Source: Candidatus Saccharimonadota bacterium (lineage in GTDB: Bacteria; Patescibacteriota; Saccharimonadia; Saccharimonadales; Saccharimonadaceae). From it: a stretch of 64,000 nucleotides of DNA. Location of the stretch: assembly GCA_017431745.1 (NCBI GenBank), contig JAFRKK010000003.1:67927-131926 (forward strand), read 5' to 3'. Position 1 is the stretch's first letter; each line of letters opens with the position of its first letter. Below the pieces are notes generated by a model. It was given only the letters and a program-made list of their open reading frames with translations. It had not been told where the DNA came from and made no database searches. Both the position numbers and the translations under genes were made by a program. Below, piece by piece: positions 4,045-61,841 of this stretch.

Positions 4045-5451
4045 ATGGGAAAAACGTTTTTCTTTTATGATCTTGAGACCTCGGGGCTGAAGGCGCGAGA
4101 AGATCGGATTATGCAGTTTGCGGGGCAGAGGACTTCGATGGAGCTAACGCCGATTGGTGAGCCGGTGAATATTTTGGTAAAAATGACAGATGATGCGTTG
4201 CCGAGTCCGGGGGCGATAAATGTGACAGGGATTACGCCGCAGATGACGCTTGCAGATGGTATCAGTGAGGCGGAGTTTTGTAAGTATGTGACAGAAGAGG
4301 TGTTCGTGCCGGAAACTGTGGCGGTGGGATATAACACGGTGCGGTTTGATGATGAGTTTATGCGGGCGTGTTTATGGCGGAATTTTTATGACCCGTATGA
4401 ATGGGAGTGGAAAGACGGTAGGTCACGTTGGGATATGCTTGATGTGGTGCGAATGGTGCGGGCGCTACGGCCAGAAGGGATAAATTGGCCGGTGACGGAT
4501 GAAGGGAAGGCGACAAATCGTCTGGAGCTTTTGACGAAACTAAATGGGCTTTCGCATGAACACGCGCACGATGCTTTGTCGGATGTATATGCGACGATTG
4601 CGGTAGCGCGGATGATTCGGGAGAGACAGCCGAAATTGTTTGAATTTTTGTTTAAGATGCGAGGGAAAACGCAAGTTAAAAAGTTAGTGAATTTGGAGGA
4701 TAAAAAACCGTTTGTGTATGTTTCTGGAAGATATTCTTCTGAATTTGAAAAGACCACTGTCGCTGTAGCACTAACAGCGGGGCGCAACGGCAATGTGTTG
4801 GTATATGATCTTCGTTATAACTTGGAGGAAGTTTTAGAACAGAGCCCGAGGGAGAGTAAAAGCGTAGTGCAGCCGGAGCGCGAAGCGCCCCGCGCGAAAC
4901 GCTCTCCCGAGGACTCTGTTCTAAAAACTTTTTATCCGATTGTAAAGGAATTATGTTATAACAAATGCCCGGCTGTCGCCCCGCTGTCGGTGCTGCGCGA
5001 TGAGGATTGGGAGCGGATTGGGCTGACGCGCGAGGTGGTGGAGGAAAATTTGAGGATTTTGATGGAGCATCCGGAGTTTGCGGAGCAGATGCGGGAGCAA
5101 CATGAAAACCGGCCGGAATTCCCGCCAACGGTAGAACCGGAGGGGGCAATTTATGATGGGTTTTTGAATGATTCGGATAAGGTAAAAGTGGCGGCGGTGC
5201 GGAATGCGGAGCCAAGCAAATTAGCAGATTTTCATCCGGATTTTATTGATGAGAGACTGCCTGAATTATTGTTGCATTATAAGGGTCGGAACTTTCCGGA
5301 ATGTTTGTCGGAGTCGGAGGCGGCTGAGTACGAGGAATACCGGCGGGCTAGATTAGAAAGACAAGCGCCAAAATTCATGGCAGAAATTGAAAAAGTGGCA
5401 GATGATTTCGTGAAAGAAGAATTGATGTTGTATTTACAATCTTTAGCTTAA
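4045..5451 (+). CDS. sbcB: Exodeoxyribonuclease I, with in-frame palindromic insertion
   Basis: 468 residues, close to E. coli ExoI (475). It degrades single-stranded DNA 3' to 5' in recombination and mismatch repair. The DEDDh exonuclease domain (1-185) shows YDLETSG (D9, E11), GYNTVRFDDE (D102) and HAHDALSD (H175, D180), plus RNFYDPY and RWDMLDV, all shared with E. coli ExoI. The C-terminal SH3-like and helical parts follow. Residues about 262-295 are encoded by a palindromic element between the SH3-like and helical regions. A -10 TAAAAT at 4033-4038 ends 6 nt before the ATG and there is no ribosome site, so the mRNA is probably leaderless. The 3' end overlaps ldh on the other strand by 4 nt. 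Confidence 0.93.
   Translation: MGKTFFFYDLETSGLKAREDRIMQFAGQRTSMELTPIGEPVNILVKMTDDALPSPGAINVTGITPQMTLADGISEAEFCKYVTEEVFVPETVAVGYNTVRFDDEFMRACLWRNFYDPYEWEWKDGRSRWDMLDVVRMVRALRPEGINWPVTDEGKATNRLELLTKLNGLSHEHAHDALSDVYATIAVARMIRERQPKLFEFLFKMRGKTQVKKLVNLEDKKPFVYVSGRYSSEFEKTTVAVALTAGRNGNVLVYDLRYNLEEVLEQSPRESKSVVQPEREAPRAKRSPEDSVLKTFYPIVKELCYNKCPAVAPLSVLRDEDWERIGLTREVVEENLRILMEHPEFAEQMREQHENRPEFPPTVEPEGAIYDGFLNDSDKVKVAAVRNAEPSKLADFHPDFIDERLPELLLHYKGRNFPECLSESEAAEYEEYRRARLERQAPKFMAEIEKVADDFVKEELMLYLQSLA
4829..4928 (+). repeat. In-frame palindromic element in sbcB
   Basis: GTTTTAGAACAGAG (from 4831) is complementary to CTCTGTTCTAAAAAC (4914-4928). The core is GC-rich with an inner hairpin GCGCGAAGCGC and flanking CCCGAGGGAGAG / CTCTCCCGAGG. 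No stop codon occurs in the host frame; it encodes an Arg/Ser/Glu/Pro-rich loop. The core differs in sequence from the other copies, so it may belong to a second subfamily. Confidence 0.75.
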
Positions 5452-6651: not shown

Positions 6652-8397
6652 ATGAAAAGCATGAAGAAGTGCGTAGTCACTAAAGAAAAAATAAGCAAAA
6701 GCATTAAGCTGGATAAACGACGAAGCAATAGGCGACGTTCCAGCGCCGGTATGTTTTACACTTCTTCTGCCGGCGCTGTGACCTCGCTTATTTGTTTTGG
6801 CAATCAGAAAATGCTATCCAGGACACGGGTCGCTCCGGCCCGTCGTCACGGGCGGAGCGCCCTAATTCTCGGTCGTAACCTCCGAAATGTCCTGTATAGC
6901 ATTTTCCTGATTACCTTACCAGTACTCTTTGTTCATCAGGCTCACGCCACCGCCAGCACTCTCACCATCAGCGTCACAGACAGCGTAGCACTTAATATCA
7001 CTTCTATTAACAGTACTGGTACCTTTGCTACTTCAGACACATCAACCAACAATATTAGCATTAAAACCACTAATGGTACTGGCTATACACTAGGCATTAA
7101 AGCTTCAACTGAAGGCAGCAATGCCCTAAATGGAGCAAATAGTACTAGCATCCCCTCCCACACAGTATCAGCCGGTATCAGTGAAGCTACTTATAGTACA
7201 GATTCTACTTACAATAACACTTGGGGCTATAGACCAAGTAAACTAAACTCCACAGCAAACTCTAACTATCTCCCAGGCCCTACTAGTGCCAGTACAGCTA
7301 TCACTCTAGATAAAACTACTTCAGCTAACCCTACTTCTGCCAACAACTATAACCTAGCTATTGGCGTAAGAGTTGATGGTAATACTGCTGCAGGAGCTTA
7401 CTCTAATACCTTTATCATAACCGTAGTAGCTAACCCATCAATCTATTCCATCACCTACAACAAGAACACTACAGACACAGTATCTAACATGCCAACTAAC
7501 GTAGTAAACCAAGAAACATCTAGTGAAACAGTCACCCTAGCAAATAATACTCCAACTAGAACTGGCTACACTTTCCAAGACTGGTGTACAGTACAAGTAG
7601 CAGACGGAGCAACCTGTACTGGTACAGCCTACTCACCTGGAAGTACCTGGACCATAGATCAGACAGCTTCAACCAACTCCTTAACTCTTTATGCTAGGTG
7701 GAAAGCTTCAACTAACAAATATTGTACTAACTGGTCTACTTGTATGCAAAACACTACTAGTACAAAACCAGCTTGTGGTTCTACTATGACTGATGGTCGT
7801 GACGGCGCTACTTACACCACCGCCACCATAGGCAGTAAATGCTGGATGACTCAGAACCTTCGCTTCACCGGTGATGAGCTCAAAATAGATGAAACTAATA
7901 TTGATGAAGATAAGAATTTAACATGGGATGATCTAACTAATGGCTCCATCGAAGGTACGCCATGCTGGGGATACGGAAGTGTTTTTGTCACAAGCAATAT
8001 TAGAGGAGATGGTTATACCAAGCCATGCAAACACGACTCTAACGATACCTCTACTGGGGTTTGGTATAACTACGCAGGCGCAACGGCAGCCACCATAACT
8101 GGAATTAGCAATTCTGCTACTGCTAATTATAGCATTTGCCCAAAAGGCTGGCGTCTACCCACTGATAACGAGCAGAGTAGTATTCAAAGTCAAACTACCA
8201 CCTATTCTCCTATTTACGGCGGATATTACACTAACGGTAACCTTAATGAAGCTTCTACACGCGGACTGTGGTGGTCTTCCACTGCATATAGTAGTTTCGT
8301 CCGTAATCGCCTCTATTATGCCGAAGGTTCTTTAGTAACTTATTTTGGCGCTGCGCGCTATGAAGGGCTCTATGTCCGCTGCGTTAGGGATTCTTAG
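6652..8397 (+). CDS. Secreted FISUMP-domain surface protein 1
   Basis: 581 residues. An unusually long Lys/Arg-rich N-terminus (1-60) precedes the signal-peptide core (about 82-97, VLYSIFLITLPVLFV) and a likely AHA-TA cleavage site near 103. A Ser/Thr/Asn-rich stalk follows, then an InlB/Listeria-Bacteroides type repeat (about 266-350, ending LTLYARW), then a Fibrobacter-succinogenes-major-paralogous-type domain (about 370-581) with GSKCWMTQNLR, CPKGWRLPT, WWSSTAY and a final LYVRCVRD. Ligand unknown; such domains are extracellular. A palindromic element (6802-6912) runs into the signal peptide. Coding strand is C-rich, unlike the G-rich neighbours. Confidence 0.85.
   Translation: MKSMKKCVVTKEKISKSIKLDKRRSNRRRSSAGMFYTSSAGAVTSLICFGNQKMLSRTRVAPARRHGRSALILGRNLRNVLYSIFLITLPVLFVHQAHATASTLTISVTDSVALNITSINSTGTFATSDTSTNNISIKTTNGTGYTLGIKASTEGSNALNGANSTSIPSHTVSAGISEATYSTDSTYNNTWGYRPSKLNSTANSNYLPGPTSASTAITLDKTTSANPTSANNYNLAIGVRVDGNTAAGAYSNTFIITVVANPSIYSITYNKNTTDTVSNMPTNVVNQETSSETVTLANNTPTRTGYTFQDWCTVQVADGATCTGTAYSPGSTWTIDQTASTNSLTLYARWKASTNKYCTNWSTCMQNTTSTKPACGSTMTDGRDGATYTTATIGSKCWMTQNLRFTGDELKIDETNIDEDKNLTWDDLTNGSIEGTPCWGYGSVFVTSNIRGDGYTKPCKHDSNDTSTGVWYNYAGATAATITGISNSATANYSICPKGWRLPTDNEQSSIQSQTTTYSPIYGGYYTNGNLNEASTRGLWWSSTAYSSFVRNRLYYAEGSLVTYFGAARYEGLYVRCVRDS
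6802..6912 (+). repeat. In-frame palindromic element at the signal peptide of FISUMP 1
   Basis: Left arm 6802-6825 (AATCAGAAAATGCTATCCAG...) is complementary to right arm 6888-6912 (...TATAGCATTTTCCTGATT). The core holds GGACACGGGTCGC, an inner hairpin around CCCGTCGTCACGGG, and CTCGGTCGTAACCTCCGAA. It encodes residues about 51-87; the right arm encodes the first half of the hydrophobic core of the signal peptide. Core nearly identical to the second pheT copy in inverted orientation. Confidence 0.88.
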
Positions 8398-17891: not shown

Positions 17892-20333
17892 ATGAGAATT
17901 TCACTAAACTGGTTAAAAAAGTTTGTAGATATCAAGATTTCGGACGAAGGGTTAGTGCGCTTGATTGGAGCACGATTGGTGGAGGTGGAAGACGTAATTG
18001 ATGAAACGCATAAATACGACAAAATCTATGTAGTAAAAGTGGTAGAAGCCGAGAAAATCCCGGACACGCATTTGACAAGGTGCATGATTGATTGTGGCGA
18101 AAAAGAATTGGTGCAAGTAATGTGCGGGGCGCCAAACGTACACGAAGGAATGTTGGCGGCTTGGATTGCGCCGGGAGCGGTGGTGCCAGCGTCGGTACAC
18201 GAAGACGCGCCGTTTGTGATTGGCACTCGTAAGATGCTTGGGAAATATGATTCGCACGGGATGTTGGCGGCAGCAGACGAATTAGACATTGGTGAGGACC
18301 ATGAAGGGATTATTGAAATTGATCCGGAAATGGCTAAGCCGGGGGATTTACTCGCGGATGTCTTTGGATTAAACGATAAGATACTTGATATCGAAAACAA
18401 GTCCTTGACGCATCGGCCGGATTGTTTCGGAATGATTGGGTTTGCCAGAGAAGTTGCTGGGATACTTGGGCAGCGATTTGAAATGGACTTTTCGAGGGAT
18501 TTCGGAGGCTGCTGCCGAGATGGAGCGCCCGAGCCCCGTGAAGACGGGCGCGAGGGACGCGACCCGAGAAAAGTGCCATTTAAATTGCTGCCAGATATCA
18601 AGATCTCTGACAATACAATCTGTCCGAGACTGACGGCGGTGGTGATGGAAAAGCATGGTGAAATCAAGAAGAAATACTTGACCTATATCGATACGGTGCT
18701 TGCGAAATCTGGAATGAAACCGATTAGCCCAATTGTGGATGCCACGAATTATTTGATGCTACTGACTGGGCAGCCTTTGCATGCTTATGATTATGATAAA
18801 TTCGTGAAGGTAGGAAAGACGGATAAGCCAATTATTGGTGTGAGACTGGCGAAGAAAAACGAAAAGCTGACTTTGTTAGATGATACTGATTTGGTGCTGA
18901 ACGAAAATGATATTATCATTACGTCAAATGATGTTCCAGTCGGGTTGGCGGGGGCGAAGGGTGGTAAGTCGACGATGATTGATGAGAATACAAAAAACAT
19001 ATTACTTGAAGTGGCGACGTTCTCTTTGTTTAACCTGCGCAAGACGCAAATGGCGCACGGCGTGTTTACGGAGGCGATTACGCGTTATACTAAGGGGCAA
19101 CCTCCATATCAGACTTTGGCAGTGGCCGAGAAATGTGCGGAGATGTTGGCGGAAGGATTTAAAGTGGCAGGGGTAGCGGATAAATATCCGAAACCGGAAA
19201 AACCGAGTGTTGTAAAAATTACAACAAATGAGATTAACGGTTTGCTTGGAACGGATTATTCTACCGAATTAATCACAAAGACGCTAGAGAACGTAGGATT
19301 TCAGATAACTTCTGTTTCGGACCGTTCGGAGGTTACGACCGAGAAAGAGGGCGCTTCGCCCGTGACGACGGGCCGAAGCGACCCGTGTCCGAAACAGATA
19401 GTTATTGAAATCCTCGTACCGGAGTGGCGGACAGATATTCATATCAAGGAAGACATCATTGAGGAAGTAGGTCGACTGCTCGGCTATGATAACATTAAGC
19501 CGGTTTTGCCAGCTCATTATACTGCCGAGAGGAACAAGATGTTCGAAATGAAGCGACAGATTCGGGATTTGATGGCAAGATATGGAGCGAGTGAGCTTTT
19601 GACTTATAGTTTTGTGAGTGAGCAGCTACTCGAAAAAGCTGGGCTTGATGTGAAGAATTCGTATAGAATCGTGAATTCGATTTCGCCGGAATTACAACTA
19701 GTTCGGCAGTCAATTGTGCCGAGTTTGCTAGACAAGTCGTTCATGAACCAAAAGTTGCCGGTGGATAAGTTTGCGATTTATGAAATGAATACGGTTTATC
19801 GGAAGGATTTGGGGCTGACTGACGAGAAAGTGCCGACGGAGAAGGTGTCGCTAGGCTTTGTAGTGGCGGAGCGGAAGAATCAAGAAACTGCGTACTATAA
19901 GGCGAAAAAATATGCGGCAAAATTATTTGAAGAGTTAAATATTGTAGTAGAATTTGTACCACTTAAGAGTAACAAATTAGCAGAAGCTAAACCATTTGAA
20001 GTAAAAAGGTCGGCGGAGATTTTGGTGGATGGTAAATACATTGGTGTTGTGGGTGAATTTAAGAATTCGGTGCGGAGTGCGTTTAAGCTGGCGCCATATT
20101 TGGCTGGGTTTGAGGTAGATATGGAAACGCTTGTGACACAAATGTCGCATAAAAAACAGATTAATTTGAAAGAACAGAAACCTGAGGACTTAACCTTGAC
20201 GACGGACAAGAGTTATGCGGCGGCTTTAGCTGAAGTGCAGAAGAAATATCCAGAGGCAAAAATTAAACCTGGCACAATTTATCAAGCTGAAGGGCAGAAG
20301 ACGCGTAATATCACTTTCCATATTGAAAAATAA
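17892..20333 (+). CDS. pheT: Phenylalanyl-tRNA synthetase beta chain, with two palindromic insertions
   Basis: 813 residues. An EMAP-type tRNA-binding domain (about 39-150), B3/B4 editing region with HRPDCFGMIGFAREVAG and GQPLHAYDYDK, B5 domain, catalytic-like domain and a C-terminal anticodon-binding FDX-ACB domain (about 720-813) are recognisable. Residues about 193-234 and 469-507 come from palindromic elements in opposite orientations; both fall between conserved blocks and keep the frame open. It starts 1 nt after pheS, so the two subunits are coupled. Confidence 0.95.
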   Translation: MRISLNWLKKFVDIKISDEGLVRLIGARLVEVEDVIDETHKYDKIYVVKVVEAEKIPDTHLTRCMIDCGEKELVQVMCGAPNVHEGMLAAWIAPGAVVPASVHEDAPFVIGTRKMLGKYDSHGMLAAADELDIGEDHEGIIEIDPEMAKPGDLLADVFGLNDKILDIENKSLTHRPDCFGMIGFAREVAGILGQRFEMDFSRDFGGCCRDGAPEPREDGREGRDPRKVPFKLLPDIKISDNTICPRLTAVVMEKHGEIKKKYLTYIDTVLAKSGMKPISPIVDATNYLMLLTGQPLHAYDYDKFVKVGKTDKPIIGVRLAKKNEKLTLLDDTDLVLNENDIIITSNDVPVGLAGAKGGKSTMIDENTKNILLEVATFSLFNLRKTQMAHGVFTEAITRYTKGQPPYQTLAVAEKCAEMLAEGFKVAGVADKYPKPEKPSVVKITTNEINGLLGTDYSTELITKTLENVGFQITSVSDRSEVTTEKEGASPVTTGRSDPCPKQIVIEILVPEWRTDIHIKEDIIEEVGRLLGYDNIKPVLPAHYTAERNKMFEMKRQIRDLMARYGASELLTYSFVSEQLLEKAGLDVKNSYRIVNSISPELQLVRQSIVPSLLDKSFMNQKLPVDKFAIYEMNTVYRKDLGLTDEKVPTEKVSLGFVVAERKNQETAYYKAKKYAAKLFEELNIVVEFVPLKSNKLAEAKPFEVKRSAEILVDGKYIGVVGEFKNSVRSAFKLAPYLAGFEVDMETLVTQMSHKKQINLKEQKPEDLTLTTDKSYAAALAEVQKKYPEAKIKPGTIYQAEGQKTRNITFHIEK
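18469..18592 (-). repeat. In-frame palindromic element 1 in pheT
   Basis: Left arm 18469-18496 (GGCAGCGATTTGAAATGGAC...) is complementary to right arm 18565-18592 (...GTGCCATTTAAATTGCTGCC). The core 18497-18564 contains GAGCCCCGTGAAGACGGGCG and is almost identical, inverted, to the intergenic copy after rpoC (44951-45070). It encodes an Arg/Gly/Glu/Pro-rich loop. Confidence 0.9.
19296..19413 (-). repeat. In-frame palindromic element 2 in pheT
   Basis: Arms 19296-19322 (GGATTTCAGATAACTTCTGT...) and 19387-19413 (...ACAGATAGTTATTGAAATCC) are complementary with a few mismatches. The core matches the FISUMP 1 copy in inverted orientation; where the inner stem differs (GCTCCG to GCTTCG) the opposite strand changes to match (CGGAGC to CGAAGC). 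Confidence 0.9.
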
Positions 20334-29006: not shown

Positions 29007-31448
29007 ATGGATAGATATGAACCGCTGAAAATAGAGCAAAAATGGCAAAAGATTTGGGACGCTGAAGAGGCATTTAAGGCTCTTGAGGAAGAGGGGCGAC
29101 CAAAGATGATGCTAGCTGAAATGTTCCCGTACCCATCGGGAGCGGGGCTTCATGTGGGGCATGTAAGGAATTTTACGATTGTGGATGTGTTGACGCGGTT
29201 TTACCGGCAACAGGGGCTAAACGTGCTCCGACCGTTTGGCTATGATACTTTTGGACTGCCAGCGGAGAATTATGCAATTAAAACTGGTACGGCGCCACAA
29301 GAAGTGACGAAGGAAAATATTGCAAATTTCCGAAATCAAGCGAAGAAGCTAGGCTATGCGATTGATTGGTCGCGTGAGATTAATACTTCGGATCCGGAAT
29401 ATTATAAATGGACGCAGTGGTGCTTTTTGCAGCTATATAAAAAGGGATTAGCCTATCAGAAAGAATCATATCAGTGGTGGTGCCCGGAAGACCAGACAGT
29501 TCTCGCAAATGAGCAAGTAGAAAATGGTAAATGCTGGCGATGTGGTCATGAGGTTGAAAAGAAGAAAATGAAGCAGTGGTTTTTCAAGATTACGGAATAT
29601 GCGGATGAGCTTCTCGACGAGATTGATAATTTGGAGTGGCCAGAGAAGATTAAAACGATGCAGAAGAATTGGATCGGGCGGTCAGTGGGTGCCGAAATAG
29701 AGTTTAAACTCTTAGCACCATCTTTCTCGGGACGCTCCTCGCGCCCGTCTTCACGGGGCTCGTCGCTGAGTCCTCGTAGCGACTGCGGATTCCCCTCGAA
29801 AGAGGCGCTTACGAGCTTAAACTCCATCACCGTTTTTACCACTAGACCGGATACAATTTTAGGTGCTACATTTATCGTTGTGGCGCCGGAGTATCAAGGG
29901 CTGGAATACATTGTGTCGGATGATGCGCGTGAGGAGGTGATGAAGTATAAGGCGGAGGCGTTGAAGAAGTCGGAGATCGAAAGGCAGGAGAATAAGGAGA
30001 AGACTGGTGTATTTACGGGGGCTTATGCGGTGAACCCAGCTACAAAAGAGAAAATCCCAATTTGGGTGGCGGATTATGTGCTAGCGGGGTATGGGACTGG
30101 TGCGATTATGGCGGTGCCAGCATATGACGAAAGGGACCGTGAATTTGCAGAGAAGTTTGATTTGCCGGTAGTGGAAGCAGAGCTGATTGACAGAGATTTA
30201 TATGGTGCACCGAAAGTGATGTATAAGATGCGAGATTGGCTGATTAGCCGTCAAAGGTATTGGGGTTGTCCGATTCCGATTGCTTATGACAAGGAGGGAA
30301 ATCCGCATCCGATTCCAGAAGACCAGTTGCCGGTGATGCTGCCGGAGATTGAAGACTATAAACCGGATGCTTCGGGAAGGAGTGCACTTGCAAAAGCGAA
30401 GGATTGGCTGAAGGTGGAGATTGACGGTGAGGAAATGACTAGGGAAACTGATACGCTAGATGGGTATGCGTGTTCCTCGTGGTATTTGTGGCGATATGCT
30501 TCGCCTCATGATACGAAAGCCGCGTGGGATGCGGAAGCGATTAAATACTGGGAGCCGGTAGATTATTATTGTGGGGGCGACCATGCAGTGGCGCACTTAC
30601 TTTATATTAGATTTTGGTGTAAGTTTTTCGCGGACCAGGGGTATCTACCCTTTAGAGAGCCGATCAAGAGATTGCTCTACAATGGCTACATCAATGCACC
30701 GGATGGAAAGAAAATGTCAAAATCCAAAGGAAATGTGATTGACCCACTGGATGTAATTAATGATGGATATGGTGCAGATACTCTTAGAACCTACGAAATG
30801 TTCATCGGGCCATATGACCTTGATGCGGCATGGGATACAAGGAGTGTTGGCGGTGTATATCGCTTCCTTAACCGTTGTTATAACCTCTTGGAAGCTGTAA
30901 AAGCCTCTTCTGAGGGGAATCCGCAGTCGCTACGAGGACTCAGCGACGAGCCCCGTGAAGACGGGCGCGAGGAGCGTCCCGAAGAAGATGGCTTTACAGC
31001 TTCCAATGCTGCTATTAGAAACAAGACGATTAAGAAGGTGACGGAAGATATACACCGGTACAGCTTCAATACTGCGGTGGCGGCGTTGATGGAATATGTG
31101 AACGAGCTTTATAAATCAGGGGCGGAAAAGGAAGATTTGGTGGTGCTTGCGAAATTGCTTAAACCCTTTGCACCACATTTGGCAAGTGAAATGCTAGAAC
31201 GATTTGATGCAGACGATGAGTGGCCAAAATGGGATGAAAAGTATTTGGTGGCAGAAACAGTAGAACTAGTGGCACAAGTGAATGGAAAACTACGAGCGAA
31301 ATTTGAAGTGTCGGTAGATGATTTGGAGGATGAAGATAAGATTATTAAGATGGTGTTAGCTGATAAAAAAATTCAGAAATATACCGAAAATGGCGTGAAA
31401 AAGACAATTTTTGTAAAGAAAAATAATTTAGTGAACATTGTAGTATAA
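29007..31448 (+). CDS. leuS: Leucyl-tRNA synthetase, with two palindromic insertions
   Basis: 813 residues. Class I signatures LHVGH (49-52) and KMSKS (569-573); Zn-like CPED / CWRC knuckle; CP1 editing domain with VFTTRPDT; final anticodon-binding and C-terminal domains. Residues about 232-273 (start of the editing domain, between GAEIEFK and SITVFTTRPD) and 628-667 (after the KMSKS helix bundle begins) are encoded by palindromic elements with an identical 70-nt core in opposite orientations. A TATAAT (28994-28999) ends 7 nt before the ATG: leaderless or nearly so. Confidence 0.95.
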   Translation: MDRYEPLKIEQKWQKIWDAEEAFKALEEEGRPKMMLAEMFPYPSGAGLHVGHVRNFTIVDVLTRFYRQQGLNVLRPFGYDTFGLPAENYAIKTGTAPQEVTKENIANFRNQAKKLGYAIDWSREINTSDPEYYKWTQWCFLQLYKKGLAYQKESYQWWCPEDQTVLANEQVENGKCWRCGHEVEKKKMKQWFFKITEYADELLDEIDNLEWPEKIKTMQKNWIGRSVGAEIEFKLLAPSFSGRSSRPSSRGSSLSPRSDCGFPSKEALTSLNSITVFTTRPDTILGATFIVVAPEYQGLEYIVSDDAREEVMKYKAEALKKSEIERQENKEKTGVFTGAYAVNPATKEKIPIWVADYVLAGYGTGAIMAVPAYDERDREFAEKFDLPVVEAELIDRDLYGAPKVMYKMRDWLISRQRYWGCPIPIAYDKEGNPHPIPEDQLPVMLPEIEDYKPDASGRSALAKAKDWLKVEIDGEEMTRETDTLDGYACSSWYLWRYASPHDTKAAWDAEAIKYWEPVDYYCGGDHAVAHLLYIRFWCKFFADQGYLPFREPIKRLLYNGYINAPDGKKMSKSKGNVIDPLDVINDGYGADTLRTYEMFIGPYDLDAAWDTRSVGGVYRFLNRCYNLLEAVKASSEGNPQSLRGLSDEPREDGREERPEEDGFTASNAAIRNKTIKKVTEDIHRYSFNTAVAALMEYVNELYKSGAEKEDLVVLAKLLKPFAPHLASEMLERFDADDEWPKWDEKYLVAETVELVAQVNGKLRAKFEVSVDDLEDEDKIIKMVLADKKIQKYTENGVKKTIFVKKNNLVNIVV
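29700..29824 (+). repeat. In-frame palindromic element 1 in leuS
   Basis: Core 29728-29797 (70 nt) with inner hairpin GCGCCCGTCTTCACGGGGC. Left arm 29700-29727 (GAGTTTAAACTCTTAGCACC...) and right arm to 29824 (...TTACGAGCTTAAACTC) are complementary. Encodes a Ser/Arg-rich loop. The core is identical to the reverse complement of 30912-30981. The minus strand is also open across the element. Confidence 0.93.
30888..31006 (-). repeat. In-frame palindromic element 2 in leuS
   Basis: Core 30912-30981 is the exact reverse complement of 29728-29797. Arms TTGGAAGCTGTAAAAGCC... (from 30888) and ...GGCTTTACAGCTTCCAA (to 31006) are complementary and unrelated to the arms of copy 1. Encodes a Glu/Arg/Asp-rich loop. 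Confidence 0.93.
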
Positions 31449-36841: not shown

Positions 36842-37267
36842 ATGGCTACTATTGACCAACAATTCGTAGAATATATCGTAAAAACCTTAGTCAACAATCC
36901 CGATAAGGTAGCAGTAGAACGGAAAATCGATGAGAAGGGAGTTTTGCTCTCTCTTACCGTGGACCCTTCTGATGTGGGACGTGTAATTGGTAAGCGTGGA
37001 GTGACGGCGCAGGCAATTCGAGTTTTGCTCCGAGCACTTGGTACTAAGCAAGACGCGCGCTATAACTTGAAGATTGTAAATACTGACGAAGAAGGTAATC
37101 CGCTGCGTGAGGAGAAATCTGAGGAAAAACCGGCTGAGAAAGAGGAAACTATAGAAGAGGTTGAGGAAGTTGAAGAGACTGAAGAGGAGCCAGAAGAGGA
37201 AGAGTCTTCAGAGCTGGCTGAGAAAACTCGGGCAGAGCTTGCTGATCTTGATGATCTAGATATCTAA
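36842..37267 (+). CDS. KH-domain RNA-binding protein (KhpA-like) with acidic tail
   Basis: 141 residues; KH domain 1-75 with GRVIGKRGVTAQAIRVLL (GxxG loop). Residues 85-141 are a Glu-rich acidic tail, absent in the 75-residue KhpA of other bacteria. Next to rpsP as in most Gram-positive genomes. Binds RNA, probably with a KhpB partner. Confidence 0.92.
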   Translation: MATIDQQFVEYIVKTLVNNPDKVAVERKIDEKGVLLSLTVDPSDVGRVIGKRGVTAQAIRVLLRALGTKQDARYNLKIVNTDEEGNPLREEKSEEKPAEKEETIEEVEEVEETEEEPEEEESSELAEKTRAELADLDDLDI

Positions 37268-37373
37268 ATTCTTGCCAAAACCCGCCATCTTGGCATTTTT
37301 CCTCGTTCGCTCTATCAATAATAGCGCTTCACTCGGAGAAAATACCAACCTGGCGGGTTTTTGTTAAGAATTT
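37266..37373 (+). repeat. Palindromic element / terminator after KH gene
   Basis: AAATTCTTGCCAAAACCCGCCA (37266-37287) pairs with 37351-37373; an inner arm TTGGCATTTTT pairs with AAAATACCAA; the loop contains CTCGTTCGCTC and GCGCTTCACTCGG. The right arm ends in TTTTTG. The loop shares CGCTTCACTCG with the element at 47206-47374. Confidence 0.75.
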
Positions 37374-37385
37374 AAAAAATAGGTA

Positions 37386-44950: not shown

Positions 44951-45070
44951 AAACAACTGAATAATATCATTCGGGGTCGCGTCCCTCGCGCCCGTCTTCA
45001 CGGGGCTCGGGCGCTAATCCTCGGCAGCAGCCTCCGGAATCCCCCGAATTGATATTATTCCAGTTGTTTT
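44951..45070 (+). repeat. Palindromic element between rpoC and secY
   Basis: Arms AAACAACTGAATAATATCA... (44951-44976) and ...GATATTATTCCAGTTGTTTT (45041-45070); the right arm ends in T6, so the outer hairpin can act as the rpoC terminator. The core (about 44975-45044) is inverted relative to pheT copy 1 and about 95% identical. Confidence 0.9.
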
Positions 45071-46548: not shown

Positions 46549-47212
46549 GGGTTGGCGAAAAATTGTGAAGTGGGTGGCGTGGAGCTTGCTTGCGGTGCTT
46601 TTGATTGTGTTTATTGTGCGGGTTTTGGTGTTTGAAAACAATTATTATGGTGAAAAAGAAGGGAGTGAACGTTCAGGCGCGGTGATTCAGGAGGACACTG
46701 ATCTAGACGAAACTGAGCCAACGAAAGATGAAATTGCAGAATACAAAGTGGCACCGGATAGGCCACGATATTTGACTGTTGAGAAATTGGGGGTGAAAAA
46801 TTCACGGATTTTGCCGATGAACGTGAATGCTTCCGGGGAACTTGATACGCCTAGAAACATTTTTGATGTGGGATGGTATGTGGCTTCAGGTAAACCAGGA
46901 CAAGGTGGTACACTAGTGATTGACGGACACAATGGTGGGCCACACGTACACGGCGTTTTTAAAAACTTGCCGGATCTTGCGGCAGGCGACATAATTAGAG
47001 TAGAACGAGGGGATGGAGCAGTGTTCAACTATAAAGTGGTAGAAAATAAAACCGTGCCGCTGGCGGATTCGGATGCGTATATGAGTGCGGCGTCGAGATC
47101 ACCAGAACCGGGTAAGGAATCGGTAACCTTGATTTCTTGTACTGGGGAATGGTCGCAGGCACAAGGAACCTATTTGTCGCGGCAATTTACACGAGCAATT
47201 CTAATAGACTAA
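46532..47212 (+). CDS. Sortase (transpeptidase)
   Basis: 226 residues from ATG 46532. N-terminal anchor (about 11-31), linker, then sortase beta-barrel with catalytic His in VIDGHNGG, Cys in TLISCTGEW and Arg in YLSRQFTRA. It attaches proteins with LPXTG-like signals (as in the 3-290 fragment) to the envelope. Its overlap with secY links export to anchoring. Class F-like by the short sequence; class not certain. Confidence 0.92.
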   Translation: MSLKIKGWRKIVKWVAWSLLAVLLIVFIVRVLVFENNYYGEKEGSERSGAVIQEDTDLDETEPTKDEIAEYKVAPDRPRYLTVEKLGVKNSRILPMNVNASGELDTPRNIFDVGWYVASGKPGQGGTLVIDGHNGGPHVHGVFKNLPDLAAGDIIRVERGDGAVFNYKVVENKTVPLADSDAYMSAASRSPEPGKESVTLISCTGEWSQAQGTYLSRQFTRAILID

Positions 47213-47374
47213 AATATAATTATTTTTTCGCGCTTCACTCGCGTCAAGTGTTTTGAGATGATTTTTTTAACGAAAAAAATGTCGTCTTGTCTTCGCCGCG
47301 CTGACATTTTTTCTAAAAATCATTTCAAAACACTTGGCTCGTTCAATGCTCAAAAATAATCATATTTTAGTCTT
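47206..47374 (+). repeat. Nested palindromic element before infA
   Basis: Outer arms AGACTAAAATATAATTATTTTT (47206) and AAAAATAATCATATTTTAGTCT (to 47373). Inner arms AAGTGTTTTGAGATGATTTTT and AAAAATCATTTCAAAACACTT, then AAAAAAATGTC / GACATTTTTT. Between the stems lie CGCGCTTCACTCGCG and CTCGTTCAATGCTC. Follows the sortase stop immediately. Confidence 0.8.
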
Positions 47375-51630: not shown

Positions 51631-51748
51631 ACAATCAAAAAAGCACTTCTCGGACACGCGTCGTTTTCCCCTGTCGCCACAGGGGAAAACGCGCTAATTC
51701 TCGCCTTGCCAGGCTCCGAAATGTCCTCAAAGTGCTTTTTCTGATTGT
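51631..51748 (+). repeat. Palindromic element after rpsI
   Basis: Arms ACAATCAAAAAAGCACTT... (51631) and ...AAGTGCTTTTTCTGATTGT (to 51748). Core begins GGACACGCGTCG and ends GGCTCCGAAATGTCC as in the FISUMP 1 and pheT copies; the inner hairpin is CCCCTGTCGCCACAGGGG instead of CCCGTCGTCACGGG, keeping the fold with changed bases. The T5 run in the right arm may terminate the operon. Confidence 0.9.
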
Positions 51749-55641: not shown

Positions 55642-55880
55642 GTATTGCAATACTCAAGCATTTAATAAATGCCAAATCCATTTGTTCTTTAGCGGGCATA
55701 ATTTAAAAGGTGAACATGGCGCCGTAAGGAACCAACTTTTTAGGTTATGTCGTAAGATTTGGCTTAAATGGTTGAGTATTGCACCCCTTGCGGTGCCATT
55801 TTTATACCCTCACTTAGATGCTTCATGTAGGAGTAAAGATGGTGCCGTAAGGGGGAGCAAATAAACTAAGTGAGGTAATA
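55642..55880 (+). ncRNA. Structured leader RNA with competing pairings (copy 3)
   Basis: -10 TGA-TAAAAT at 55635-55640. P1: TGCAATACTCAA (55646-55657) / TTGAGTATTGCA (55772-55783). A: ATGGCGCCGTAAGGA (55716-55730). B: CCCCTTGCGGTGCCAT (55784-55799) plus TTTTT. A': ATGGTGCCGTAAGGGG (55839-55854). Every difference from copy 2 keeps pairing through G-U or compensating pairs. AGTGAGGTAA before the ATG. Confidence 0.82.
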
Positions 55881-57872: not shown

Positions 57873-57958
57873 TGGTGCTGGAGGTAGGACTCGAACCTAC
57901 GAAGCGCGAAGCGCGAGAGATTTACAGTCTCTTGTCATTGCCACTAGACGACTCCAGC
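57873..57958 (-). tRNA. tRNA-Tyr (GTA), minus copy
   Basis: 86 nt with encoded CCA; GCTGGAG / CTCCAGC acceptor, anticodon GTA, long class II variable arm (GCGCTTCGCGC). Nearly identical to the plus copy at 61757-61841; they differ mainly in the variable arm. Confidence 0.93.
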
Positions 57959-61756: not shown

Positions 61757-61841
61757 GCTGGAGTCGTCTAGTGGCAATGACAAGAGACTGTAAATCTCTC
61801 GCTTTCGAGCTTCGTAGGTTCGAGTCCTACCTCCAGCACCA
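61757..61841 (+). tRNA. tRNA-Tyr (GTA), plus copy
   Basis: 85 nt with CCA, class II variable arm. Inverted relative to 57873-57958. Possible integration target for the prophage that seems to start after it. Confidence 0.93.

Follow-up and report, generated by a model that had tools for sequence, protein, structure and literature searches.

Introduction

Rickettsia palindromic elements (RPEs) are ~100-nt palindromic repeats that lie in frame in open reading frames (ORFs) and occur in both orientations. They are reported to lose their repeat identity over time (PMC6649704). In Nematomorpha mitochondria, long inverted repeats inside coding genes keep identical arms, for which template switching has been proposed (PMC6649704). 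Template switching between inverted repeats has been described to yield homogenised arms and an inverted spacer (PMC8604942), and the process can also create a stem in one step (PMC8794818). In yeast, fold-back inverted duplications of about 5–34 bp have been documented (PMC11724301). The mitochondrial hairpin elements of sponges (RHE) and yeast (bypassing elements) form dispersed hairpins as well, those of yeast lying inside genes.

The elements analyzed here, from a 64,000-nt stretch of a Saccharibacteria genome (the window), resemble each of these systems in part. By their features they are like RPEs and similar elements, being ~100-nt in-frame palindromes in ORFs in both orientations, but their arms are locus-specific and kept complementary, they use several unrelated cores with G-A edges, and they reside in another organism. 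They share with the Nematomorpha palindromes a position inside coding genes and long arms that are kept matching; no shared mobile core has been described there, however, whereas the present cores are found repeatedly, at many loci, and undergo flips and swaps. The elements are linked to quasipalindrome template-switch mutations by their homogenised arms and inverted spacers (PMC8604942), although ordinary cases of such mutations are small changes in existing repeats and here a dispersed core lies at each site. The likeness to the mitochondrial hairpins is one of description; the yeast elements are reported to stay untranslated, whereas here the reading frame is open through the insert, so translational bypassing is not needed. 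No description of such hairpin elements in Saccharibacteria was found in searches of an open-access library.

Saccharibacteria of this group are tiny gut bacteria. The source genome of the window (744 kb, 13 contigs) belongs to a Candidatus Saccharibacteria species in a Nanosyncoccus-like genus, and its nearest named relatives are ruminant-gut MAGs and Ca. Nanosyncoccus alces. The genome set for the genus comprised 174 genomes. When 148 genomes of the order were searched with the core, at limited sensitivity, the matches lay in this genus, apart from those in one further genome of the family.

Results and Discussion

Shared Core and Locus-Specific Arms

At least 30 copies of core A were found in the source genome, through searches and in individual stretches of sequence. 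All 30 copies recovered genome-wide fold as hairpins whose tip is the shared GC-rich core, and the outer 15–28 bp of each copy are unique to its locus and pair with each other. This is what a sequence-only reading of the window had described as arms complementary within a copy and unrelated between loci, and the pattern holds for both pheT copies, both leuS copies, those at 6802–6912 and 44951–45069, and the full set of 30. The pairing is imperfect in some copies, with bulges or a 2 × 2 mismatch at the core edge. As with RPEs, these ~100-nt palindromic inserts lie in frame within ORFs: 27 of the 30 copies are inside an ORF of at least 150 aa whose frame stays open through the element, and both core orientations occur. 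A bulge-tolerant scan (arm score ≥17, spacer ≤170) detected 138 inverted repeats of this type in 1.66 Mb and none in codon-shuffled copies, which excludes chance. Assembly or amplification chimeras do not explain the elements either, because the same copies with the same arms are found in independently assembled species (L003/L108, L009/L102 and L015/L096). The copies of the window are listed in Table 1.

Table 1. Core-A hairpin copies in the window (positions count from its first nucleotide)
Feature	Position	Strand	Remarks
pheT copy 1, 5' locus-specific arm	18469..18493	+	near-perfect complement of 3' arm
pheT copy 1, core A with GA...GA edges	18494..18567	+	in frame in pheT (17892-20333)
pheT copy 1, 3' locus-specific arm	18568..18592	+	near-perfect complement of 5' arm
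pheT copy 2, 5' arm	19291..19322	+	outer part matches empty allele of G124
pheT copy 2, core A	19323..19386	+	
pheT copy 2, 3' arm	19387..19417	+	near-perfect complement of 5' arm
leuS copy 1, arm coding EFKL	29700..29719	-	outer part = native codons
leuS copy 1, core A, reverse orientation	29720..29803	-	
leuS copy 1, arm inverse to EFKL arm	29804..29824	-	outer part fits native strand
leuS copy 2, 5' arm (inverse copy)	30888..30911	+	
leuS copy 2, core A with GA/GA edge	30912..30982	+	
leuS copy 2, 3' arm (native)	30983..31006	+	present in empty allele of G060
Core-A copy	6802..6912	-	arms 6802-6825 / 6888-6912; in frame in ORF 6652-8397
Core-A copy, intergenic	44951..45069	-	arms 44951-44976 / 45042-45069
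Further core-A-like copy	51631..51748	-	arms 51631-51656 / 51722-51748; upstream of tRNA-Ala

At the site of the intergenic copy, the relative G124 lacks the element and carries a different hairpin. The window also holds other inverted repeats. One, at 4832–4926 inside ORF 4045–5451, has 25-nt near-perfect arms around a different GC-rich core. Long AT-rich inverted repeats at 2540–2706, 37265–37374, 47206–47373 and 55646–55783 are mostly intergenic and terminator-like, and core-like centers are seen in them in relatives. Two near-identical tRNA-Tyr genes in opposite orientation, ~3.8 kb apart (57873–57958 and 61757–61841), form an 85-bp inverted repeat.

Core Families and the G-A Edge

Other cores, again with locus-specific arms, occur in the relatives and in the source genome: family B (GGGAGTAAGACTCGG...), family C (GGACCGTAAGCTTGG...) and AT-rich ones. 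The three unlike families A, B and C have one boundary in common, a tandem G-A mismatch (e.g., window 30910–30912 / 30982–30984). In oriented copies, GA stands opposite GA at the core edge in 40 of 72 A, 7 of 7 B and 15 of 24 C copies, and GA/GA is the commonest 2 × 2 internal loop over all repeats (43 versus 12 for the next), counts that are inflated by the orientation of the fetched loci and the relatedness of the copies. This common edge was not part of the earlier reading; its presence on different cores hints at a structure recognized by some protein.

Occupied and Empty Alleles

The origin of the arms was examined by comparing occupied with empty alleles. Copy 2 of leuS is missing from the relative G060, whose LeuS is 98% identical over residues 1–630. 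The empty allele, ...CTTACAAGAGGCCTCTACAGCCTCTAATGCTGC..., matches the right arm of the copy, TTTACAGCTTCCAATGCTGC, and the left arm is the inverse. In addition, the left flank of that allele agrees with part of the left arm, over codons of L-E-A, and so a short natural repeat may have been present before the insert; the allele contains the short inverted repeat AGAGGC/GCCTCT. The conserved I-(D/E)-F codons of leuS site 1 lie in the left arm, and in seven occupied alleles the right arm has their inverse, N-S-I/V. This motif stands ahead of the next strand in 7 of 25 occupied versus 1 of 55 empty alleles (Fisher p = 0.0009; the window and L133 share theirs by descent). In the copy at L016, within a gene that we take from its motifs to encode alanyl-tRNA synthetase (AlaRS), the downstream arm is native and the other arm is its inverse, absent from the empty allele. 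By eye, leuS site 2 has a native right arm in L143, L146 and L179 and a native left arm in L151. Judging from these alignments, several loci show an inverse copy on one side, which may be either side of the core. A fixed rule by which the native arm is always the one 3' of the oriented core was rejected, with AlaRS, pheT copy 2, L196 and L137 as clear exceptions in a hand tally; the 10:1 excess of TC/GA over GA/TC at healed edges would agree with this rule, although it comes from related copies that are not independent.

The sequence-only reading had held that one arm of leuS copy 1 encodes EFKL of the editing domain, which is correct, and that the other arm must be a newly made inverse copy. 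The distribution of N-S-I/V favors the second claim, whereas the site 1 profile scores, which fall on both sides, and a 10-bp inverted repeat in the empty allele of G124 speak against it. Its broader proposal, that insertion makes an inverted duplication of the target, for example by template switching, draws support from leuS sites 1 and 2, AlaRS, the homogenised arms and the flipped cores; it is not borne out generally, since in many cases the empty allele has neither arm (e.g., L160 versus L154 and L155 versus L160). No direct target-site duplication was noticed in a non-systematic look through the alignments of empty and occupied alleles.

Some of the pairs with an armless empty allele are probably losses of the element. 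L198 is best read as a loss at the downstream leuS site because the outgroups L199 and L205 are occupied there with related arms, and taking every empty site with a near-zero gap as ancestral was rejected on this ground. The armless alleles bear on a second explanation, in which the unit that moves extends beyond the shared core and brings along its own stem from the donor, the two arms then diverging fast and in step. The absence of both arms in L160 versus L154 and L155 versus L160 fits such carry-over, as do some inner arm common to the copies L011:1492 and L012:1480 and a site where the inner arms change together with the core while the outer arms stay. We nevertheless consider it improbable: within one genome, each of 30 copies has outer arms of its own, several arms code for residues conserved in the very gene that hosts them, and L202 versus L198 looks like the loss just described. 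In its pure form, with the arms wholly derived from the donor, it was rejected, since outer arms are not common to different copies.

Alternatively, a mobile core could enter a natural inverted repeat at its loop, turning the existing stem into arms whose pairing is perfected later. Short inverted repeats are indeed found in empty alleles at leuS copy 2, at leuS copy 1 (the 10 bp of G124) and at ligA, where empty G124 has the short natural repeat CATCAG/CTGATG and a protein of ordinary length. Outer arms kept at orthologous sites while the core family changes, and nested insertions in cores of G124, point the same way. An exact repeat of at least 7 nt between the halves of leuS site 1 is present, however, in only 3 of 55 true empty alleles (a count that leaves out L182, with its truncated insert, and in which the pattern skipped L134, with 10 bp), and many other empty sites lack any arms. 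Empty alleles with long arms look like relics. At L002:1808, both outer arms persist in G060, on the two sides of a 4-nt direct repeat (CGAG), and G124 has neither arm; given the direct repeats and the armless G124, the G060 allele looks like a deletion relic. The 10-bp repeat of G124 at leuS site 1 is possibly a relic too, because the more distant L182 has a truncated form of the same insert. Empty sites already holding both arms, which the sequence-only reading had named as the observation that would refute its proposal, are thus local (ligA and leuS copy 1, 6–10 bp; L002:1808) and not general, and we regard insertion into natural repeats as a rather unlikely origin of the arms overall. The earlier alternative of insertion into existing hairpins survives in another form, as it seems to occur as core exchange inside older arms.

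Paired Change, Flips and Swaps

The dynamics were followed in 28 non-overlapping orthologous pairs with homologous arms. Arm columns that changed on both sides and still pair number 37, versus 0.8 expected under independence, and 77 changed on one side; among the 28 pairs, 6 have the core inverted between conserved arms and 4 have a core of another family. These counts are approximate, being subject to alignment choices and shared ancestry. The arms evolve as one unit. Core flips are seen among close species (L225/L226, L202/L203 and L235/L242), and L228/L231/L253 combine a core flip with new arms. At the site of L234/L239/L240/L246, half of an A core is replaced by a C core.

Two further observations concern leuS. 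The LeuRS loop at window 30850–31040, with its equivalents in L133–L212, is a hotspot that carries an insert in 24 of 61 species, comprising several types of core in more than one orientation. The core of leuS copy 1 (window 29719–29806) is identical in G060 (L066), where nearby leuS DNA is clearly diverged, which suggests recent exchange or constraint.

Paired changes could also come from selection for pairing, if the hairpin works in RNA or protects the gene and compensatory changes are selected one by one. The strong excess of paired changes and the stable folds are consistent with such selection. The same essential loops are empty in most relatives, however, core orientation flips freely, and an Rfam search of the pheT region matched no family, so that this explanation seems very improbable to us.

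Proposed Mechanism

We put the chance at about even that the elements are hairpin tips spreading by an unproven route, with arms that are built, homogenised and flipped by fold-back template switching. The elements would be small tips with a core of ~40–80 nt (families A, B and C) and GA-GG...CC-GA edges, mostly in frame inside genes, on a locus-specific stem derived at least in part from host flank. A DNA strand ending in the hairpin would fold back, and copying of the adjacent flank from its 3' end would leave the opposite side with a reverse-complement arm. In later rounds of fold-back or template switching, one arm could be copied onto the other, so that both change together, the core could be inverted between the arms, or a different core could take over the tip. 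Both described signs of template switching are found here, homogenised arms and spacer inversion, and several unrelated cores behave alike. The pattern looks like recurrent miscopying at hairpins, not like standard transposition. The many sites with neither arm in the empty allele and the two-sided profile scores at leuS site 1 count against fold-back copying. Moreover, random template switching alone predicts neither the GA/GA edge common to unlike cores nor the spread of cores to new loci.

As to the machinery, REP/RAYT systems likewise place dispersed GC-rich palindromes in a bacterium, but REPs are extragenic, and no Y1 (RAYT) transposase was found here in 24 genomes of the genus, with positive controls, and RAYT-driven movement was rejected on that basis. 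SbcD did not exceed the cut-off in any of 40 Saccharibacteria (three hits were weak and sub-threshold; of 14 control genomes, 13 gave a signal), and hairpins of this kind may therefore escape cleavage in the group. In yeast, fold-back inverted duplications are promoted when Mre11, the eukaryotic counterpart, is lost (PMC10622511), and by analogy the lack of SbcD might have this effect here; against such a role, SbcD absence spans the whole order sample, whereas the element is nearly confined to one genus.

A bolder, more doubtful possibility is that several unrelated cores in one bacterial genus make use of a mobile hairpin of a new kind, which has tandem G-A mismatches as end marks and, on inserting, produces an inverted copy of the target flank. 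We know of no transposable element with the latter signature.

Significance

Selfish palindromes inside genes and stem-building template switching, usually seen apart, are joined in these elements. They also carry a warning that paired changes in a stem need not imply RNA function. Across dozens of species of the genus, the same codon positions in essential genes can be compared in their occupied, empty, flipped and swapped states, which makes the origin, spread and lasting pairing of long bacterial hairpins testable.
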